Origin: Rhodanobacter denitrificans
GTDB lineage: Bacteria > Pseudomonadota > Gammaproteobacteria > Xanthomonadales > Rhodanobacteraceae
Direction of reading: 5' to 3'
NCBI RefSeq assembly: GCF_000230695.2
Contig: NC_020541.1
Coordinates: 4,161,491 to 4,225,490, forward strand
DNA: 64,000 nt
The notes beneath the pieces are model-generated. The model worked only from the letters and a program-made list of their open reading frames with translations. It had not been told where the DNA came from and searched no databases. The position numbers and the translations under genes are program-made. Positions 4,482 to 51,735 of this stretch are shown piece after piece. Positions within the stretch are counted from its first letter, which is position 1. Each line of letters starts with the position of its first letter.

Positions 4482-5071
4482 GCGCATCCGACGGGAGACA
4501 AGGCGCCGCGGGGCGAATCGCCATGACGTATCTGCAGCGGCAAGGCGGGATCGTCGTCCGCCCGCTGGCGGCAGGCGACGCGGAGCCGCTGTACCGGGCA
4601 GTGCGCAGTTCGGTGGAGTCGCTGTCGTACTGGCTGCCCTGGTGCCACCGCGACTATGCGCTGGCGGATGCGACCGCTTGGGTCGAGCACGGCATGGCGT
4701 GCTGGGCGGCCGGCTCCGAATTTCCCCTCGGCGTGTTCGATGGCACGGGCGCGGTCATCGGCGGCACCGGGGTGAACCACCTCAACCGCGCCCACGGGGT
4801 GGGCAATCTCGGCTACTGGGTATGCGACGCCGCAAGGAATCGCGGCGTGGCCACGCTCGCCGCCCGTGCCGCGGCCCGGCTGGGCTTCGACGTGCTGGGC
4901 CTGACGCGGCTGGAGATCGTGGTGCCGCCGCACAACGCGGCCAGCCAGCGGGTGGCGGAGAAGCTGGGCGCGCTGCGCGAGGTGGAGGCACGCAACCGCG
5001 TGCTGTTCCAGGGCCGGCCCGAGCGCGCGGTGGTCTATTCGCTGATTCCCAACGACCTGGCGGACGGCTGA
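4478..5071 (+). CDS. GNAT-family N-acetyltransferase (RimJ/RimL-like)
   Basis: 197 residues from ATG 4478; ATG 4523 (MTYLQRQGGIVVRPL) is a good alternative start because the fold begins there. RPLAAGDAEPLYRAV opens the fold, and LGYWVCDAARNRGVATLA (residues about 111-128) is the acetyl-CoA-binding loop of the RimL subgroup, with VVPPHNAASQRVAEKLGA as the following helix. Members acetylate N-termini of ribosomal proteins or small amines; the acceptor here is unknown. It is coupled to the upstream cupin gene. Confidence 0.85.
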   Translation: MSASDGRQGAAGRIAMTYLQRQGGIVVRPLAAGDAEPLYRAVRSSVESLSYWLPWCHRDYALADATAWVEHGMACWAAGSEFPLGVFDGTGAVIGGTGVNHLNRAHGVGNLGYWVCDAARNRGVATLAARAAARLGFDVLGLTRLEIVVPPHNAASQRVAEKLGALREVEARNRVLFQGRPERAVVYSLIPNDLADG

Positions 5072-5262
5072 GCGGACGGCACTTGGTATGGCCGCCACGC
5101 CGGCACGCCCCGGCTTATGCATCGACTTAACCTGCCGCCGTGCACGCTGGAAAGCGAACCCGATGTCCGGCATGTTGGCGACGTCCTGCCGTAGCGCGTG
5201 GAATGATGCGCGCCGCATGTCGGGCAAGTTCGCCCGCCGCCCCCAAGGAGAACGCCATCACC

Positions 5263-6669
5263 ATGCCGACACCCCGCTCGGACGCCCTGGTCTTTTTCGG
5301 CGCCACCGGCGACCTGGCCTACAAGAAGATCTTTCCGGCACTGCAGGCGATGCTGCTGCACGACGGGCTGAACCTGCCGATCATCGGCGTGGCGCACTCG
5401 GGCTGGAGCGTGGAGCAGCTGCGCCAGCGCGCGCACGACAGCCTGGCGCACGCGGCGCAGGAGCAGGGCGGCGCGGTGGACGAGGCCGCCTTCGCGCAGC
5501 TGGCGGCGCGATTGCAGTATGTCGATGGCGACTACAACGACCCGGCCACGTTCGCGCAACTGAAGCGGGCGCTGGGCGCGGCACAACGGCCGCTGCACTA
5601 TCTGGCGATCCCGCCCGGGCTGTTCGCCGTGGTGGCGAAGAACCTGCAGCAGGCCGGCTGCGCCGACGGGGCTCGGATCGTGGTGGAGAAGCCGTTCGGC
5701 CGCGACCTGGCCTCGGCGCAGGCGCTCAACCGCACGCTGCACGCGGTGTTCCCGGAGTCGGCGATCTTCCGCATCGACCATTACCTGGGCAAGGAGCCGG
5801 TGCAGAACCTGTTGTATTTCCGCTTCGCCAACACCGTGCTGGAGCCGGTGTGGAACAACCGCTACGTAGACCGCGTGCAGATCACCATGGCCGAGCAGTT
5901 CGGCGTGGACGGCCGCGGCGCGTTCTACGAGGGCGTCGGTGCTATCCGTGACGTGCTGCAGAACCACCTGCTGCAGGTGACCTCGCTGCTGGCGATGGAT
6001 GCGCCGATCGGCAGCGAGCCGGAAGCGCTGCGCGCGGAGAAGCTGCGGCTGTTCCGCGCGATGCGCCCGCTCGACCCGGCCGAGGTGGTGCGCGGCCAGT
6101 TCCGCGGCTACCGCGAGGTCGAGGGTGTGGCCGCCGATTCCAACGTGGAGACCTTCGTGGCGCTGTGCCTGCACATCGACACCTGGCGCTGGGCCGGCGT
6201 GCCGTTCCACATCCGCGCCGGCAAGCGGCTGCCGCTGACCACCACCGAGGTGATGGTGGACATGAAGGCGCCGCCGCTGTCGGTGTTCGACCCGGTCGGC
6301 GCGGCGCAGTCGAACTACTTCCGCTTCCGGCTCAGCCCGCAGGTGATCCTCGCCGCGGGCATGCGGGTGAAGCAGCCGGGCGAGGAGATGCGCGGCGAGC
6401 CGGTGGAGCTGGTCGTGCGGCACGACCTGGCACCGGAGAAATCGCCGTACCAGCGCCTGCTCGGCGACGCGATACGCGGCGACAACGCGCTGTTCACCAG
6501 CGACGAATGCGTGGAGGCGGCGTGGGCGGTGGTCGACCGCGTGCTCGCCCACGAAGGCGCGGTGGAGCTCTACGAGCCGGGCAGCTGGGGTCCGGCCGCG
6601 GCGGCGCACCTGGTCGGCGGCGACGAGGGCTGGCACGACCCGCGGGCGGAGGAGAACCGGCCATGCTGA
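5263..6669 (+). CDS. zwf: Glucose-6-phosphate 1-dehydrogenase
   Basis: 468 residues from ATG 5263 with AAGGAG at 5245-5250. It oxidises glucose 6-phosphate to 6-phosphoglucono-1,5-lactone with NADP, the entry to the oxidative pentose phosphate and Entner-Doudoroff routes. The Rossmann nucleotide site is [17 protein letters not shown] (residues about 10-26), the substrate-binding and catalytic motif is [13 protein letters not shown] (about 170-182), and VRIEKPFG appears as [10 protein letters not shown]. It is slightly shorter than the usual 480-500 residues. It is the first gene of a compact sugar-phosphate operon, and its stop overlaps the next gene. Confidence 0.95.
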
Positions 6670-44321: not shown

Positions 44322-45809
44322 TCAGCGGACGCCGTCACCCTGGCGCTTGCGCTCCATCCGGCGCAGGAACTCCCGCATCACGCGCAGATACAGCTCCTCG
44401 CCGAGGTAGGCGTCCTCGACGCCGGCGTCGATCGACGGGTTGTCGTTCACCTCGATCACCACCGGCTTGCTGCCGACCTGCTTCAGGTCGACACCGTAGA
44501 GACCGTCGCCGATCGGCTGGGTCGCCTTCAGCGCCAGCTTGACCACCGCCGCCGGCGCCTCCTTCAGCGCGATGGTCTCGAAGCCGCCGGATTTTGCCGT
44601 GCCCTTGGCACCGTGGTTGTAGATCTGCCAGTGGCCGCGCGACATGTAGTATTTGCAGGCGTAGATCGGCTCGCGATTGAGTACGCCGATGCGCCAGTCG
44701 AACTCGGTGTAGACGTATTCCTGCGCCAGCAGCAGCGCACTGTGCTGGAACAGGCCGCTGGCCGCGTGTGCCAGCGCGTCCTCGTCCTCGACCTTGACCA
44801 CGCCGCGCGAGAACGAGCCGTCCGGGATCTTCAGCACCAGCGGGAAGCCGAGCCGGGCCACCACTTCCTTCATGCCCTTGCTGTCGTCGCGGTAGAGGAT
44901 TTCCGTACGGGGGACAGCCAGCTTGCGCGAGACCATCAGGTCGTTGAGGTAGATCTTGTTGGTGCAGCGCAGGATCGAGCTGGGGTCGTCGATCACCACC
45001 ATGCCTTCCTTCTCGGCGCGGTGGGCGAAGCGGTAGGTGTGGTTGTCGGACGCGGTGGTCTCGCGGATAAACAGGCCGTCGTATTCGGCCAGGCGCTGGT
45101 AGTCGTTCTTGCCGATCGGGTCGACCTCGATGCCGAGCTCCCTGCCGGCGGCGACGAAGGACTTCAGCGCCTTCTTGTTCGACGGTGGCATCTGCTCCTT
45201 CGGGTCGACCAGCATCGCCAGGTCGTAGCGGAACTGGCGCCGCGCGCGCGGCTTGCGCCACAGCTTGCGCGAGAAGCGGTCGAGCTCCTCGGCGAACGCG
45301 TCCTCCTGGGTGTCGACCAGGGTGTGCAGGCCGACCGGCTTGATCGAGCTGACCTGCCACACGCGGTCGCGCTCGAACTCGATGCGCAGCAGCGGGCAGG
45401 GGAACATTTCGAACACCTGCCGGGCCAGGTCCTGCAGCGCCGGGTAGGCCGTCTCGCCAAAATAGACCAGGGTGCCGAAATCGGTGGTGTCGCGGCCGCC
45501 GGCCGGCAGGAAGTGGGTGAGCTTCTGGTTGAGGTCGTCGATGTCCAGGCCGTACAGCGAGCGCCGGCGCAGGTCGTTCACCGTGCGCACCGACGGCATC
45601 ACCTTGTGCCCGCGCGCCTCGGCCAGCAGCGACACGTAGTAGCCGGTGCCCAGGTACTTGTAGCTGCGGCACAGGTTGATCACGTGGGTGCGTTCGTCGT
45701 CGCCGCCGACCGGCTTGCGCAGATAGTCCATCGCGCTCATCACGTCGACGGACGGGTAGTACGAACTCCAGTCGGAAGCTTTTTCGACAACGATGACCAG
45801 ACGGGTCAT
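44322..45809 (-). CDS. RimK-like ATP-grasp ligase
   Basis: 495 residues from ATG 45809. An N-terminal domain of about 200 residues (VIVVEKASDWSSYYPSVDVM, INLCRSYKYLGTGYYVSLLA) precedes a C-terminal ATP-grasp fold: NDLMVSRKLAVPRTEILYRD, FPLVLKIPDGSFSRGVVKVE, LLAQEYVYTEFDWRIGVLNR and VIEVNDNPSIDAGVEDAYLG. The family ligates amino acids, usually glutamate, to a protein or peptide, but this long subgroup has no settled substrate. It is often found beside a GNAT or GNAT-peptidase C39 gene, as here (46001, divergent). Confidence 0.87.
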   Translation of the reverse strand: MTRLVIVVEKASDWSSYYPSVDVMSAMDYLRKPVGGDDERTHVINLCRSYKYLGTGYYVSLLAEARGHKVMPSVRTVNDLRRRSLYGLDIDDLNQKLTHFLPAGGRDTTDFGTLVYFGETAYPALQDLARQVFEMFPCPLLRIEFERDRVWQVSSIKPVGLHTLVDTQEDAFAEELDRFSRKLWRKPRARRQFRYDLAMLVDPKEQMPPSNKKALKSFVAAGRELGIEVDPIGKNDYQRLAEYDGLFIRETTASDNHTYRFAHRAEKEGMVVIDDPSSILRCTNKIYLNDLMVSRKLAVPRTEILYRDDSKGMKEVVARLGFPLVLKIPDGSFSRGVVKVEDEDALAHAASGLFQHSALLLAQEYVYTEFDWRIGVLNREPIYACKYYMSRGHWQIYNHGAKGTAKSGGFETIALKEAPAAVVKLALKATQPIGDGLYGVDLKQVGSKPVVIEVNDNPSIDAGVEDAYLGEELYLRVMREFLRRMERKRQGDGVR

Positions 45810-46000: not shown

Positions 46001-46534
46001 GTGCCGACCGCCCTGCCCCCGCCATCCCCCGCCCACGGCCGCCGCATCGCCGCGGGACCGGCCGACCTGCCGTCGGCAACCAGCGGCCCGCGCGTGCGCC
46101 GCGCCGCCGCATCCGACCTGGACGAGCTGGTCGCGCTGGAACAACGCAGCTTCAGCAGCGACCGGCTGAGCCGTGCGCAATACCGCCGCCACCTGGACAG
46201 CGACTCCGCCCTGGTACTGGTGGCCAGCGCCAACCATCACCTTTTCCTCGGCAGCGCCGTGCTGTTCTTCCGCAAGCGCAGCGCGGTGGCCCGCCTGTAC
46301 TCGCTGGCCACCGCGCCGGAGGCACGCGGCCAGGGCGTCGGTGCCGCGCTGCTGGCCGCGGTGGCCGACGCCGCGCGGCGCCGCGGCTCGCGCGCACTGA
46401 AACTGGAAGTGCGCACCGACAACGCCGCCGCGATCCGGCTGTACGAACGCCACGGCTTCCGCCGCATCGCCCGCTACGCGCGCTACTACGAAGACGGCGC
46501 CGATGCCTGGCGCTACGAGCAGACGCTCGACTGA
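46001..46534 (+). CDS. GNAT-family N-acetyltransferase (RimI-like)
   Basis: 177 residues from GTG 46001; the first 28 are disordered and the fold begins at PRVRRAAASDLDELVALEQR. The acetyl-CoA loop is LATAPEARGQGVGAALLAAV (residues about 105-124), and LKLEVRTDNAAAIRLYERHG follows as in RimI. It is divergent from the RimK-like ligase. In related genomes the same neighbour often carries an added peptidase C39 domain, which is absent here. The acceptor is unknown. Confidence 0.85.
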   Translation: MPTALPPPSPAHGRRIAAGPADLPSATSGPRVRRAAASDLDELVALEQRSFSSDRLSRAQYRRHLDSDSALVLVASANHHLFLGSAVLFFRKRSAVARLYSLATAPEARGQGVGAALLAAVADAARRRGSRALKLEVRTDNAAAIRLYERHGFRRIARYARYYEDGADAWRYEQTLD

Positions 46535-46769: not shown

Positions 46770-47762
46770 ATGGCCGCCACCGCGCAAGCACAACCGAACA
46801 TCGCCCTGGTCAAATACTGGGGCAAGCGCGACACGAGGTTGAACCTGCCGGTCACCGGCTCCCTGTCGATCACCCTGGACGCGCTGTGGACGCGCACCCG
46901 GATCGAGTTCGATGCGTCGCTGCGGCATGACGAGCTGCGCCTGAACGGGAAGGAGGACCCGGCAACGCTGGCCCGGGCCAGCGCCTGCCTGGATCTGCTG
47001 CGGCGGCGCGCCGGCACCACGCAGCGCGCGCGAATCGACACGCGCAACAATTTCCCCACCGCGGCGGGACTGGCTTCCTCGGCATCCGGCTTCGCGGCGC
47101 TGGTGGTGGCGGCCGACGCCGCGCTCGGCCTCACGCTGGATCGCCGGACCCTGTCCATGCTGGCCCGGCAGGGTTCGGGTTCGGCGGCGCGCTCGCTGTT
47201 CGGCGGCTTCGTCAGCATGGCCGCGGGCCAGCGCGACGACGGCGCGGACGCGGTCGCGCAACCCCTGCTCGGCGCCGCCGCATGGCCGCTGGCGGTGGTC
47301 GTCGCGGTGACCTCGGACCGCCGCAAGCACGTCGGCTCGGGCGCCGGCATGGAGCGCAGCCGCCGCACGTCGCCGTTCTACCCGGCGTGGGTGGACAGCG
47401 CGGCGGCGGACCTGGCGGCCGCGCAGCGCGCGGTGCAGGCGCGCGACTTTGCCGCGTTGGCCGAGCTGAGCGAACACAACTGTCTGAAGATGCATGCAGT
47501 GATGCAGTCCAGCCGGCCGCCGCTGCTGTACTGGAACGGCGCCACCGTCGACTGCATGCAGCGCATTCGCGCCTTGCGCGAGGACGCGGGCGAGCAGGTC
47601 TTCTTCACGGTCGATGCCGGCGCCCAGGTGAAGGCCGTCTGCACGCCGGACGCGGCGCCCCGGGTCGCCGCCGCGCTGGCCGAGTTGCCCGGCGTCGCCC
47701 AGGTGCTGAGCAGCCGCCTGGGCGAAGGTGCGCGGCGGCTCGACGACAGCGAGGCGCCCTGA
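46770..47762 (+). CDS. mvaD: Diphosphomevalonate decarboxylase
   Basis: 330 residues from ATG 46770; the open frame reaches back to 46611 but the added part is arginine-rich and unlike the family. It converts mevalonate 5-diphosphate to isopentenyl diphosphate, with ATP. Diagnostic motifs are QPNIALVKYWGKRDTRLNLP (residues about 6-25), FPTAAGLASSASGFAAL (phosphate loop), GSGSAARSLFGGF and FFTVDAGAQVKAV. It is the first gene of the mevalonate operon, and its stop overlaps the next start (TGATG). Confidence 0.93.
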   Translation: MAATAQAQPNIALVKYWGKRDTRLNLPVTGSLSITLDALWTRTRIEFDASLRHDELRLNGKEDPATLARASACLDLLRRRAGTTQRARIDTRNNFPTAAGLASSASGFAALVVAADAALGLTLDRRTLSMLARQGSGSAARSLFGGFVSMAAGQRDDGADAVAQPLLGAAAWPLAVVVAVTSDRRKHVGSGAGMERSRRTSPFYPAWVDSAAADLAAAQRAVQARDFAALAELSEHNCLKMHAVMQSSRPPLLYWNGATVDCMQRIRALREDAGEQVFFTVDAGAQVKAVCTPDAAPRVAAALAELPGVAQVLSSRLGEGARRLDDSEAP

Positions 47763-48781
47763 TGCGCGTACTGGCTACGGCGCCGGGCAAGCTGGTGATC
47801 GCCGGCGAGTACGCGGTGCTGGAGGGCGCCCCCGCGCTGGTCCTGGCGATCGACCGGCAGGCACGCGTGACGCTGGAAGACACCGACGGCAGCGATTACG
47901 AGATCACGGCGCCCGGGCTCGGCATCGATGCCGCGCACGGCCGGCTGGATGCGGCCGGGCGGATCGCCTGGCCGGCGCTGGATGCGGCGGCGAGCGCACC
48001 GCTGCGGCTGGTCGGCGCCATCCTGGAAACGCTCGGCGCGGAGGACCGGCCGCCGCCGTTTCGCGCCAGCCTGGACACCCGCGCGTTCCATGCCGGCAGC
48101 GATGGCCGGCGCAAGCTCGGCCTGGGTTCCAGCGCGGCGCTGACGGTGGCGCTGGCCAGCGCGATCGGCACGCTGGGCCGGCGCGGCGTGCCGTCCCTCG
48201 ACACGCTGCTCGCGGCACACCGCCGGGCGCAGGATGGCTACGGCAGCGGATTGGACGTCGCCGCCAGCCTGACCGGCGGCCTGCTGCTCTACCGGCTGCA
48301 CGACGGGCAGCCGCGGATCGCGCCGGCGACATGGCCGCAAGGGCTGGCGTGGTGCTGCGTGTGGACTGGCCGGCCGGCCTCGACCGGACTCTTCCTGCAG
48401 CGGCTGGCCGCCTGGCGCGCGCAGGCGCCGGCGCGCCACGCCGCGGCGATGCGCGAGCTCGGCGACTGCGCCACGGCCGCCGCCGGCGCAACCAGTGCGG
48501 CCGCGCTGCTCGAGGCGGTCGCCGCTTGCGCCCAGGCGCTGGAGCGACTGGGCGCGGCCAGCGGCCTGGACATTTTCAGCCCCGAGCACCGCGCGCTGGC
48601 CGCGCTGGCGGCGCGCCTGGGGGTTGCCTACAAGACCTGCGGCGCCGGCGGCGGCGACATCGGCATCGCGCTGGCCACCGACGCTGCGCGCCTGCAAGCC
48701 TTCCGGCGGGCCGCCAGCGCCGCCGGCTTTCCCGTGCTCGACCTGCACCCGGCCGCCGCCGCCAGCGTGCAGGCGCACTGA
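47762..48781 (+). CDS. Phosphomevalonate kinase
   Basis: 339 residues from ATG 47762, coupled to mvaD. It is a GHMP kinase that phosphorylates mevalonate 5-phosphate. LATAPGKLVIAGEYAVLEGA (residues 4-23) is the substrate motif, KLGLGSSAALTVALASAIGT (about 119-138) the ATP loop, DGYGSGLDVAASLTGGLLL the middle motif and YKTCGAGGGDIGIALA the C-terminal motif. GEYAVLEGAPA and GAGGGD favour phosphomevalonate kinase over mevalonate kinase. The mevalonate kinase activity is encoded in the next gene as a fusion, so the two kinases are complementary. Confidence 0.88.
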   Translation: MRVLATAPGKLVIAGEYAVLEGAPALVLAIDRQARVTLEDTDGSDYEITAPGLGIDAAHGRLDAAGRIAWPALDAAASAPLRLVGAILETLGAEDRPPPFRASLDTRAFHAGSDGRRKLGLGSSAALTVALASAIGTLGRRGVPSLDTLLAAHRRAQDGYGSGLDVAASLTGGLLLYRLHDGQPRIAPATWPQGLAWCCVWTGRPASTGLFLQRLAAWRAQAPARHAAAMRELGDCATAAAGATSAAALLEAVAACAQALERLGAASGLDIFSPEHRALAALAARLGVAYKTCGAGGGDIGIALATDAARLQAFRRAASAAGFPVLDLHPAAAASVQAH

Positions 48782-48809: not shown

Positions 48810-51155
48810 GTGGACTCGTTACCCGCAACCGGCCAGGCCGACTCGCCTGCCGCAACCCCGGCCGACGACACGCCGTGCGATCGCGCGGCGAGTGCGCCCG
48901 AGCATCCCGCCCGCCTGCCCGGCTTCCATCGGCTGGCGGTGACCGAGCGGCTGCAGCTGCTGCGCAGCCGCGGGCTGCTGACGCAGGCCGACCACCGCGC
49001 GCTGACCAGCGGTGCGCAGCGGCTGGAGCCGGCGCAGGCCGACAAGATGATCGAGAACGTCATCGGCGTGATGGGGCTGCCGGTCGGGCTGGGCCTGAAT
49101 TTCCTGATCAACGGCAAGGACTACGTGGTGCCGCTGGTGGTCGAGGAGCCGTCGATCGTGGCCGCGCTGAGCGCCGCCGCCAAACTGGTGCGAGGCTGCG
49201 GCGGCTTCACCACCGCGAGCGACCGGCCCCTGCTGATCGGCCAGGTCCAGCTGACCGGCCTGGCCCACTCGGGCAAGGCGCGCACGGCCTTGCTGCAGCG
49301 GCGCGACGAGATCATCAACCTGGCCAACAGCCTGCACCCGAACATGGTCGCACGCGGCGGCGGCGTGGCGGACGTCGAGGTGCTGATCCACGCCGCGCCG
49401 GACGGCGGCCCCGACATGCTGGTGCTGCACCTGCTGGTCGACACCTGCGACGCGATGGGCGCCAACCTGGTTAACACGATGTGCGAGGGCGTGGCCCCGT
49501 TGGCCGAGGCGATCACCGGCGGCAAGGCCTGCCTGCGCATCCTGTCCAACCTGACCGACCGGGCGCTGGTGCGCGCCAGCGCGGTGATCCCGGCGCATGC
49601 GCTGGCCGGCAAGGGCCACGACGGCGGGCAGGTGCGCGACGGCATCATCCTGGCCAACGACCTGGCCCTGGTCGACCCGTATCGCGCCGCGACCCACAAC
49701 AAGGGCGTCATGAACGGCGTGGATGCAGTGGCGCTGGCCACCGGCAACGACTGGCGCGCGCTGGAGGCGGCGGTGCACGCCTACGCCGCGCGCGGTCAGG
49801 GTTATCGCGCGCTGACCCGCTGGTCGCGCAACGCGCAGGGCGATCTGGTCGGCAGCATCGAGCTGCCGCTCAAGGTCGGCACCGTGGGCGGTTCGCTGCA
49901 GGCCAACCCGATGGTGGCGATCAACCATCGTTTGCTGGGTTCGCCCGGCGCGCGCGAGCTCGCCGAGGTGATGGCCGCCGTCGGCCTGGCGCAGAACTTC
50001 TCCGCCTTGCGGGCGCTGGTCACCGACGGCATCCAGCAAGGCCACATGACCCTGCACGCGCGCAGCGTGGCGATGGCGGCCGGCGCCACGCCGCCGATGT
50101 TCGAGCAGGTGGTGGAACGCCTGCTGGCCGACGGCGAGATCAAGCTGTGGAAGGCGCAACTGATCGTGGCCGAGCTGGGCGGGCAGGCGGCGCCGGGGCA
50201 AGCTGCCAGCGGCCACCCGCGGGCGGCCGGCACGCAGGAATGGGCGGCCGGCCACGGCAAGGTGATCCTGCTCGGCGAACACGCCGTGGTATACGGCCGC
50301 CACGCAATCGCCGCGCCGTTGCCGCTGGCGATCCGCGCGCGCGTGGAGGACGCCCGCGACGGCACCACGCTGCTGATCCCGCGCTGGGGCATCGAGCAAC
50401 GCCTGCCGCAGCAGCCGGCGCACCCGGGTTCCTTCCTGCAGTCCCTGACGCTGCTGCTGGAGCGTCTCGGCCTGGACCGGCGCGCGCTGCGCATCCAGGT
50501 GGCGCCGGAGATGCCCCGGGCGATGGGCCTGGGCGGCTCGGCGGCGCTGGCGGTGGCGGTGATCCGCGCACTCGACCGGCACTGCGCGCTGGGCCTCGAC
50601 GACGCCAGCGTCTGCGCGCTCGCCTTCGAGTGCGAGACGATCGCCCACGGCACGCCCTCGGGCATCGACAACACGGTCGCCACCCACGGCGAGGCGCTGC
50701 TGTACCGGCGCGGCGAGCCGGCGACGATCCGCCCGCTTGCGCTGAAACAGCCGCTGCCGCTGGTGATCGGCCTGAGCGGCAGCGAGAGCCTGACCGCCAG
50801 GATGGTGGCGCGCGTGCGTCAGGCGTGGCGGCAGCATCCGGCGCGATACGAACGCATCTTCGACGAAATCGACGTGCTGACCCGGCACGCGCTCGACGCG
50901 CTGCAAGCCCACGACCTGGGCGAACTCGGCGAACTGATGAACATCTGCCAGGGTCAGTTGAACGCGCTGCAGGTGTCCAGCCGCGAGATCGAGGAACTGG
51001 TCCAGCTGGCACGCGAGCACGGCGCGCTGGGCGCCAAGTTGACCGGCGGCGGCGGTGGCGGCGCGGTGATCGCGCTGTGCCCCGACGGCGGCGCGCGCGT
51101 GGTCCGGGCGATGCGCGACGCCGGCTACCAGGCGCTGGAGGTGTCCTTTGGCTGA
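48810..51155 (+). CDS. Fused HMG-CoA reductase (class II) - mevalonate kinase
   Basis: 781 residues from GTG 48810 (AGGA at 48798-48801), one uninterrupted frame. Residues about 35-465 are class II HMG-CoA reductase: ENVIGVMGLPVGLGLNFLIN with the catalytic Glu, TCDAMGANLVNTMCEG (cofactor site), THNKGVMNGVDAVALATGND with catalytic Lys and Asp, and GHMTLHARSVA with catalytic His. After a short linker, residues about 477-781 are mevalonate kinase: GHGKVILLGEHAVVYGRHAI, AMGLGGSAALAVAVIRAL, HGTPSGIDNTVATHG (catalytic Asp) and KLTGGGGGGAVIAL. The protein thus makes mevalonate from HMG-CoA and phosphorylates it. Its last eight bases overlap the isomerase gene. Confidence 0.93.
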   Translation: MDSLPATGQADSPAATPADDTPCDRAASAPEHPARLPGFHRLAVTERLQLLRSRGLLTQADHRALTSGAQRLEPAQADKMIENVIGVMGLPVGLGLNFLINGKDYVVPLVVEEPSIVAALSAAAKLVRGCGGFTTASDRPLLIGQVQLTGLAHSGKARTALLQRRDEIINLANSLHPNMVARGGGVADVEVLIHAAPDGGPDMLVLHLLVDTCDAMGANLVNTMCEGVAPLAEAITGGKACLRILSNLTDRALVRASAVIPAHALAGKGHDGGQVRDGIILANDLALVDPYRAATHNKGVMNGVDAVALATGNDWRALEAAVHAYAARGQGYRALTRWSRNAQGDLVGSIELPLKVGTVGGSLQANPMVAINHRLLGSPGARELAEVMAAVGLAQNFSALRALVTDGIQQGHMTLHARSVAMAAGATPPMFEQVVERLLADGEIKLWKAQLIVAELGGQAAPGQAASGHPRAAGTQEWAAGHGKVILLGEHAVVYGRHAIAAPLPLAIRARVEDARDGTTLLIPRWGIEQRLPQQPAHPGSFLQSLTLLLERLGLDRRALRIQVAPEMPRAMGLGGSAALAVAVIRALDRHCALGLDDASVCALAFECETIAHGTPSGIDNTVATHGEALLYRRGEPATIRPLALKQPLPLVIGLSGSESLTARMVARVRQAWRQHPARYERIFDEIDVLTRHALDALQAHDLGELGELMNICQGQLNALQVSSREIEELVQLAREHGALGAKLTGGGGGGAVIALCPDGGARVVRAMRDAGYQALEVSFG

Positions 51156-51735
51156 CGCGACGCCACGCCACCCCACGGTCTCCTCCGAAGCCGAGCGGCT
51201 GATCCTGGTCGACGCCGACGATCGCGCGGTCGGCTACGCCAGCAAGGCGGCCGCCCACGATGGCCGCGGCCAGCGCCATCGCGCCTTCTCGCTGTTCATC
51301 TTCAACGGGCACGGCGAGTTGCTGCTGCAGCAGCGCAGCCGCAGCAAGCGGCTGTGGCCCGGTTACTGGGCCAACAGCTGCTGCAGCCACCCGCGCCAGG
51401 GCGAAAGCATGGAGCAGGCCACCGAACGACGCCTGCAGCAGGAGCTGGGCATGCGCTGCCCGCTGCGTTACCTGTTCAAGTTCGAATACCAGGCCGATTA
51501 CCGCGACCTCGGCGCCGAACACGAACTGTGCTGGGTCTACGCCGGCACCTGCACGCAGCCGGTGCGCGCCAATGCCACGGAAGTCGAGGCCTGGCGCTTC
51601 GTCGCGCCGGCCGCACTCGATCGCGAGATCGCCCGCTGCCCGGAGCGCTTCACGCCCTGGCTGAAGCTCGAATGGGCGCAACTGCGCCAGGGCCTGGCGC
51701 TGTCGGCTTACCTCAGCCCCCCAGCGGGTGGCTGA
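51148..51735 (+). CDS. idi: Isopentenyl-diphosphate delta-isomerase, type I
   Basis: 195 residues; the start is TTG at 51148 inside the end of the fusion gene, since no ATG or GTG lies near the conserved beginning. It interconverts IPP and DMAPP. The Nudix-type fold shows GQRHRAFSLFIFNGHGELLL, then QQRSRSKRLWPGYWANSCCS and HPRQGES (catalytic Cys in NSCCSHP), AATERRLQQELGM in the form QATERRLQQELGM, and EHELCWVYAG (catalytic Glu). It completes the pathway encoded by this operon. The 3' end overlaps the convergent gene by 23 bp. Confidence 0.9.
   Translation: MADATPRHPTVSSEAERLILVDADDRAVGYASKAAAHDGRGQRHRAFSLFIFNGHGELLLQQRSRSKRLWPGYWANSCCSHPRQGESMEQATERRLQQELGMRCPLRYLFKFEYQADYRDLGAEHELCWVYAGTCTQPVRANATEVEAWRFVAPAALDREIARCPERFTPWLKLEWAQLRQGLALSAYLSPPAGG

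Follow-up and report, generated by a model that had tools for sequence, protein, structure and literature searches.

A class II HMG-CoA reductase and a mevalonate kinase joined in one predicted polypeptide of Rhodanobacter denitrificans and other Gammaproteobacteria

Introduction

MvaE of Enterococcus, a thiolase-reductase, likewise naturally joins a bacterial HMG-CoA reductase to a second mevalonate-pathway step, and it is the only mevalonate-pathway fusion mentioned in the excerpts of PMC13001223. Its partner domain is acetoacetyl-CoA thiolase, whereas the partner in the fusion described here is the directly following kinase, and no thiolase model was among the matches of the fusion chain. 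IspDF of the MEP pathway is also a natural bifunctional isoprenoid enzyme (excerpts of PMC13001223), although its enzymes are unrelated to those of the fusion and act at nonconsecutive steps, whereas the fusion joins consecutive ones; in that paper, the word "fusion" is used once, for IspDF, and "fused" is absent. According to the same excerpts, most of the Legionella species analyzed lack HmgS, and possible compensating alternative enzymes need work (PMC13001223).

Here, we describe a gene of Rhodanobacter denitrificans that joins HMG-CoA reductase to mevalonate kinase. It lies in a window of 64,000 nucleotides, the whole stretch of DNA that was analyzed, which forms the final 64 kb of a host genome consisting of one contig of 4,225,490 bases and listed as 100% complete. 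The initial annotation of this DNA knew of no characterized reductase-kinase fusion, in keeping with our full-text literature search, which covered few subscription papers and no preprints and gave no paper dealing with such a fusion in its title or the opening of its abstract. The fusion brings two known enzymes together in a new architecture, undescribed within the literature searched.

Class II HMG-CoA reductases can work oxidatively, as established for P. mevalonii, and the chain 1qax, which we take to be the degradative class II HMG-CoA reductase of that organism, is matched over its full length by the reductase of the fusion, with four catalytic residues common to both; it differs in being unfused and in its coenzyme site, described below. 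The kinase half aligns over its length with the single-domain mevalonate kinases 2hfs (presumably the Leishmania enzyme; best match, 1.1e-44) and 2x7i, which are separate proteins, whereas the kinase of the fusion is joined to the reductase. An unfused arrangement was found at five gammaproteobacterial loci (L133-L137), where a reductase 42-43% identical to that of the fusion adjoins a GHMP-like kinase gene. MvaD lies nearby in L136 and L137, and in L133 it is 7 kb distant; a separate gene of L136 matches the mevalonate kinase model at 127.6, under the cut-off of 163.

Results

The fusion gene runs as a single open frame of 781 codons from a GTG at 48810 to a stop codon at 51153-51155 (Table 1), with AGGA upstream, ending 8 bases ahead of the start, and the host genome contains one match to the fusion protein, at 4210300. 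The initial annotation had assigned both enzymes to one 781-codon frame, for which coordinates, strand, and length were all borne out, and had proposed looking for a stop or frameshift near the linker; none was present at about 50175-50240, where the frame is open. In the N-terminal half, PF00368 matched residues 43-417 (E 2.7e-109, model positions 1-368 of 368) and TIGR00532 scored 401.7 bits against a cut-off of 260, while the mevalonate kinase model TIGR00549 scored 244.9 bits against a cut-off of 163 over residues 482-756. The reductase residues E113, K298, D314, and H412, located through alignment with the chain from P. mevalonii, and the eight tested kinase residues, among them K484, S577, E609, and D620 of the GHMP motifs, were invariant in 98/98 aligned rows, a set that includes the window twice and other near-duplicates (the 97 fetched rows reduce to 50 at <85% identity), which agrees with the earlier claim that catalytic residues are kept in both halves. 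We assume that these aligned residues of the reductase and kinase have catalytic roles. From these matches, we infer that the reductase half would carry out NAD(P)H-dependent reduction of HMG-CoA and the kinase half ATP-dependent phosphorylation of mevalonate. Solved sequences matching the fusion numbered 38, none of which had its best stretch across both halves.

Table 1. Coordinates of the fusion gene, its parts, and the neighboring operon genes in the window
Feature	Position	Strand	Details
Diphosphomevalonate decarboxylase MvaD	46770..47762	+	TIGR01240 284 bits, cut-off 171
GHMP kinase, probably phosphomevalonate kinase (PMK-like)	47762..48781	+	Best model TIGR01220 118 bits, under cut-off 166
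HMG-CoA reductase-mevalonate kinase fusion	48810..51155	+	781 aa, GTG start; NCBIfam/Pfam models
Class II HMG-CoA reductase domain	48909..50174	+	Residues 34-455; PF00368, TIGR00532; solved relatives 6dio, 1qax
Linker	50175..50240	+	About residues 456-477; length varies among relatives
Mevalonate kinase domain	50241..51152	+	Residues 478-781; TIGR00549, PF00288, PF08544; best solved match 2hfs
Type 1 isopentenyl-diphosphate isomerase (IDI), putative start TTG	51148..51735	+	NF002995 174 bits (cut-off 127), TIGR02150 152 (cut-off 106)

At one position of the coenzyme site, the fusion carries His (97/98 rows), where Asp is found in the P. mevalonii chain, 6dio, and 6p7k and Tyr in 5wpj and 3qae. 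Asp at this site is reportedly tied to NADH use, and because it is His in the fusion, NADPH would be a likelier coenzyme than NADH.

A scan of named genomes yielded at least 581 confirmed relatives of the fusion, and in all of the best 80 loci, which were kept, both halves lay in one frame (L058 reaches residue 718). One frame spanned residues 80-740 in 88 of the 92 loci examined; L010 and L058 end at contig ends, and the other two exceptions, L011 and L012, are unrelated weak matches. PF00368, PF00288, and PF08544 all matched in 50/50 diverse fusion members. Overall, the searches showed the fusion to be common in Gammaproteobacteria. Close relatives among the matches listed were those of R. 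thiooxydans LCS2 (97%, L070) and R. lindaniclasticus (96%, L013), and the scan loci also included records titled Nakamurella, Planctomycetota, Myxococcales, and Thermoanaerobaculia, assignments that are by title alone and may reflect misbinning. Within the host genus, the fusion occurs in 7/25 genomes, with identities to the host copy (G000) of 95-97% in G002, G006, and G019, 65% in G004 and G016, and 69-75% in G023, where it falls into two contig pieces. When 369 genomes were sampled from the class, 36 matched the fusion at E 1e-20, comprising nine full-length fused proteins (host included), one partial match over both halves (G219), 18 matches to the reductase only, seven weakly matching kinase-like sequences, and one distant and weakly matching reductase-like sequence. 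Plasmids gave 41 matching records, none of which covered 80% of the fusion at a single location. A sequencing or assembly artefact, or chance, was ruled out by the E-values, the recurrence in many genomes, the invariant active sites, and purifying selection in both halves. At another locus (L130), an unfused class II reductase at 1106-2392 lies about 2.6 kb from a type-1-IDI-like gene at 4975-5505 (37% identical), and no match to the kinase half of the fusion was found in 10 kb.

On a quick reductase tree, for which SH-aLRT was the only support measure and which contains one long fused branch (L138), 52 fused rows were set apart from 11 unfused ones by a branch with an SH-aLRT of 96; a single origin of the fusion is favored by this split, and several independent fusions are not. 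For the kinase half, the matches to the outgroup were short. The distances of the two halves correlated over the 52 fused rows (Mantel r 0.856, with 0/999 permutations as high), a correlation that any two linked genes with a common descent would also show. On the tree, the G016 copy grouped with those of Dokdonella and Dyella and the window copy lay elsewhere, so more than one transfer of the fusion into the host genus is likely.

The fusion is the third gene of a four-gene operon encoding MvaD, a PMK-like kinase, the fusion, and IPP isomerase. The MvaD and PMK-like genes overlap by one base, a gap of 28 bases separates the latter from the fusion, and the fusion and isomerase frames overlap by eight bases if the isomerase TTG is the start. 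With named probes, a PMK-like gene was found near the fusion in 73, MvaD in 67, and IDI in 65 of the best 80 of at least 581 loci, some of which end at contig ends. Calls by a rough gene caller, which misplaced genes in L129 and L131, for example, were used only with backing from models or similarity. Upstream of the operon lies a divergent pair consisting of an ATP-grasp ligase (44325-45809, minus strand; RimK-like, with the RLAN domain PF14401) and a GNAT acetyltransferase (46001-46534, plus strand), possibly a peptide-modifying pair.

Hopanoid genes were probed by tblastn with representatives, HpnH and HpnA being over cut-off and HpnB, HpnG, and squalene synthase below, and such a gene was near the fusion in 38 of the best 80 of at least 581 loci (HpnH 31, HpnB 22, HpnA 15, HpnG 6), with a squalene-synthase-like gene in 11 of the same 80. 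Given these neighbors, the mevalonate pathway probably feeds hopanoids in many relatives, and in the host genus a squalene-hopene cyclase lies roughly 12 kb from the fusion in G004 and G016. Hopanoid supply was ruled out as the role of the operon in the host itself, since its genome yielded no squalene-hopene cyclase and six hopanoid-cluster probes gave no match within the window. A hopanoid-linked HMG-CoA-synthase-like family of about 500 aa was also seen near the fusion in 12 of these best 80 of at least 581 loci (e.g., L025:13355-14839 and L028:14174-15661), the L025 member scoring 154.6 with TIGR01835 against a cut-off of 360.

HMG-CoA synthase was sought with PF01154 and with the alignment A1, which comprises eight sequences of the hopanoid-linked type, in 39 distinct fusion-bearing genomes, made up of 10 from a genus-inclusive search, 8 from the class sample (G079, G157, G205, G209, G272, G317, G369, and G406; 8 of the 9 full-length, host aside), and 23 hand-picked genomes behind the 80 loci, two of which duplicate G006 and G033 by identical coordinates. 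A1 found a synthase in 22/39 of these genomes and none in the other 17, namely the host (G000), G002, G004, G006, G016, G019, G023, G033, G079, G157, G272, G369, G420, G421, G422, G423, and G426. PF01154 gave nothing over cut-off in these 17 (G426 had a sub-cut-off match of 17.8 bits), and the host genome matched neither PF01154 nor A1.

The MEP pathway was judged by one gene, Dxr, which was over cut-off in 9/17 synthase-negative genomes, the host among them, and had no match in 7/17; G422 holds a 33-residue fragment, leaving 8/17 without full-length Dxr. Neither Dxr nor synthase was over cut-off in G033 (Wenzhouxiangella sediminis), G157, G272, G369, G421, G423, and G426, with listed completeness of 94-99% for G033, G157, G272, and G369 and no listing for G420-G426. 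A type II DXR is described in a few bacteria (PMC3847144, in excerpt). The host keeps Dxr, and the operon therefore need not be its main source of IPP. Three Dyella genomes (G415-G417; L044, L047, and L048) gave Dxr matches of 220-256 bits, under the cut-off of 316, which may stem from a Dxr that has diverged or from a paralogue resembling Dxr, and the other two Dyella genomes searched (G413 and G414) gave none.

A substantial possibility, if somewhat short of an even chance, is that the negative hosts run an ordinary acetyl-CoA-fed pathway with a synthase too divergent for the models, the fusion then being a mere convenience. The synthases of the 22 positive genomes are of more than one type, those of G418, G419, and G424 score no more than 104-112 bits with A1 but 99-107 with PF01154, and first-look filtering ahead of scoring can lose candidates, all of which speaks for this explanation; against it, PF01154 reaches archaeal-type control genomes, yet detected nothing over cut-off in the 17, and the host genome is complete in one contig.

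Leucine degradation with methylcrotonyl-CoA carboxylase and methylglutaconyl-CoA hydratase yields HMG-CoA. HMG-CoA lyase was over cut-off in 16/17 synthase-negative genomes, the G423 match being cut by the contig start, and a LiuB-like carboxyltransferase was present in 16/17 at 58-100% identity (the query G157 itself included), with 35% in G423. The host lyase scored 443.7 bits against a cut-off of 246 and adjoins biotin carboxylase and crotonase genes (L117); the biotin carboxylase had no MCC-specific NCBIfam match, the crotonase is named LiuC solely from its context, with its top-scoring NCBIfam models under cut-off, and the LiuB-like carboxyltransferase, 65% identical to that of G157, lies elsewhere. 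G157 has a run of lyase, biotin carboxylase, crotonase, carboxyltransferase, thiolase, and acyl-CoA dehydrogenase genes, and G272 looks alike; the carboxyltransferase and dehydrogenase of G157 fit NCBIfam superfamilies but no specific model, and the other genes were named from order and similarity. The leucine route to HMG-CoA thus appears to be available in 16/17 synthase-negative genomes.

Lyase over cut-off together with a LiuB-like protein at >=50% identity to that of G157 was found in 16/17 synthase-negative versus 5/10 tested synthase-positive genomes (lyase in 7, LiuB-like at >=50% in 7), an association given little weight because one genus accounts for 7 of these 17 and its fusion-free members carry such genes as well. 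Those fusion-free members have HMG-CoA lyase (11/11) and a LiuB-like protein (3/3), and the leucine genes consequently do not point to a feed into the fusion. Leucine degradation is nevertheless our leading guess for the origin of HMG-CoA in synthase-negative hosts such as this one. For Gammaproteobacteria lacking both synthase and the MEP pathway, it is conceivable, though doubtful, that the fusion diverts leucine-derived HMG-CoA one-way to IPP, with leucine or isovalerate serving as isoprenoid carbon; the synthase found in 22/39 genomes counts against this leucine feed.

In a different role, the fusion would stand at a branch point for imported mevalonate, which its kinase would send toward IPP and its reductase, running backwards, would turn into HMG-CoA for breakdown by the lyase. 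The oxidative capacity of class II reductases such as that of P. mevalonii is in line with this role, as are the presence of HMG-CoA lyase and the failure to find a synthase in the host, but several observations make it improbable. Two unfused plasmid-borne relatives adjoin TRAP or tripartite transporters, and one also HMG-CoA lyase, as expected for mevalonate use, unlike the fusion, whose neighbors include MvaD, PMK-like, and IDI genes; no HMG-CoA lyase or transporter was among the neighbors checked (ATP-grasp, GNAT, MvaD, PMK-like, and IDI), and the host lyase, at G000:C1:1339033, is far from the fusion at 4210300. Moreover, the coenzyme-site Asp of the P. mevalonii type is His in the fusion, and genomes without Dxr would depend on outside mevalonate.

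Similarly slight is the chance that the host operon now serves no purpose and simply remains from a hopanoid cluster acquired in the past. This would fit a host that keeps Dxr, in which neither synthase nor squalene-hopene cyclase was found, and whose relatives often show hopanoid genes next to the fusion (38 of the best 80 of at least 581 loci); it conflicts with the retention of the operon in G002, G006, and G019 and with purifying selection on both domains, for which dN/dS against four near relatives was 0.04-0.11 in the reductase and 0.13-0.18 in the kinase, versus 0.5-1.3 in the 21-codon linker.

It is very unlikely that two proteins are made in practice, whether by translation of the kinase from a start inside the gene or by cleavage of the chain in the linker. 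In favor of this reading, the window has a GTG in frame at 50166, upstream of which lies GGAAGG, the linker is poorly conserved, and an in-frame ATG, GTG, or TTG occurs there in 59/97 fused sequences, so separate kinase translation may be possible in some species. Against it, an SD-like 4-mer stands upstream of such a codon in only 14/97, chance alone should place in-frame GTG and TTG codons in GC-rich genes, and the segment from residue 449 to residue 480 varies from 21 to 67 residues while always staying in frame (98 aligned rows).

Discussion

The fused protein is probably a bifunctional biosynthetic enzyme, HMG-CoA reductase plus mevalonate kinase, that traps mevalonate. The N-terminal class II reductase would convert HMG-CoA to mevalonate, which the C-terminal kinase, carried on a flexible linker, would phosphorylate; since the reductase reaction can run in either direction, the kinase step would render it one-way and prevent the escape of mevalonate. 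The products of the adjoining genes would then convert phosphomevalonate to IPP and DMAPP. Where a host has HMG-CoA synthase, the fusion would receive its HMG-CoA from acetyl-CoA, and in synthase-negative hosts, this substrate may be drawn from leucine degradation in competition with HMG-CoA lyase. A coupling of mevalonate formation to its phosphorylation is plausible. The initial reading that consecutive steps are joined stands on the sequence, the operon, and conservation, but its assumption of an ordinary mevalonate pathway is called into question for the host, in which no synthase was found and Dxr is present.

What most merits further work is the source of HMG-CoA in those hosts for which the searches gave no synthase. 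As many fusion hosts fall into this group, the published question of HmgS absence in Legionella becomes testable, and a feed from leucine catabolism, if true, would be one answer to how that absence is compensated. If both domains are active, the fusion would offer, as a natural module on one chain, two central mevalonate-pathway steps that follow each other, and it could serve in pathway engineering and in tests of the importance of coupling.
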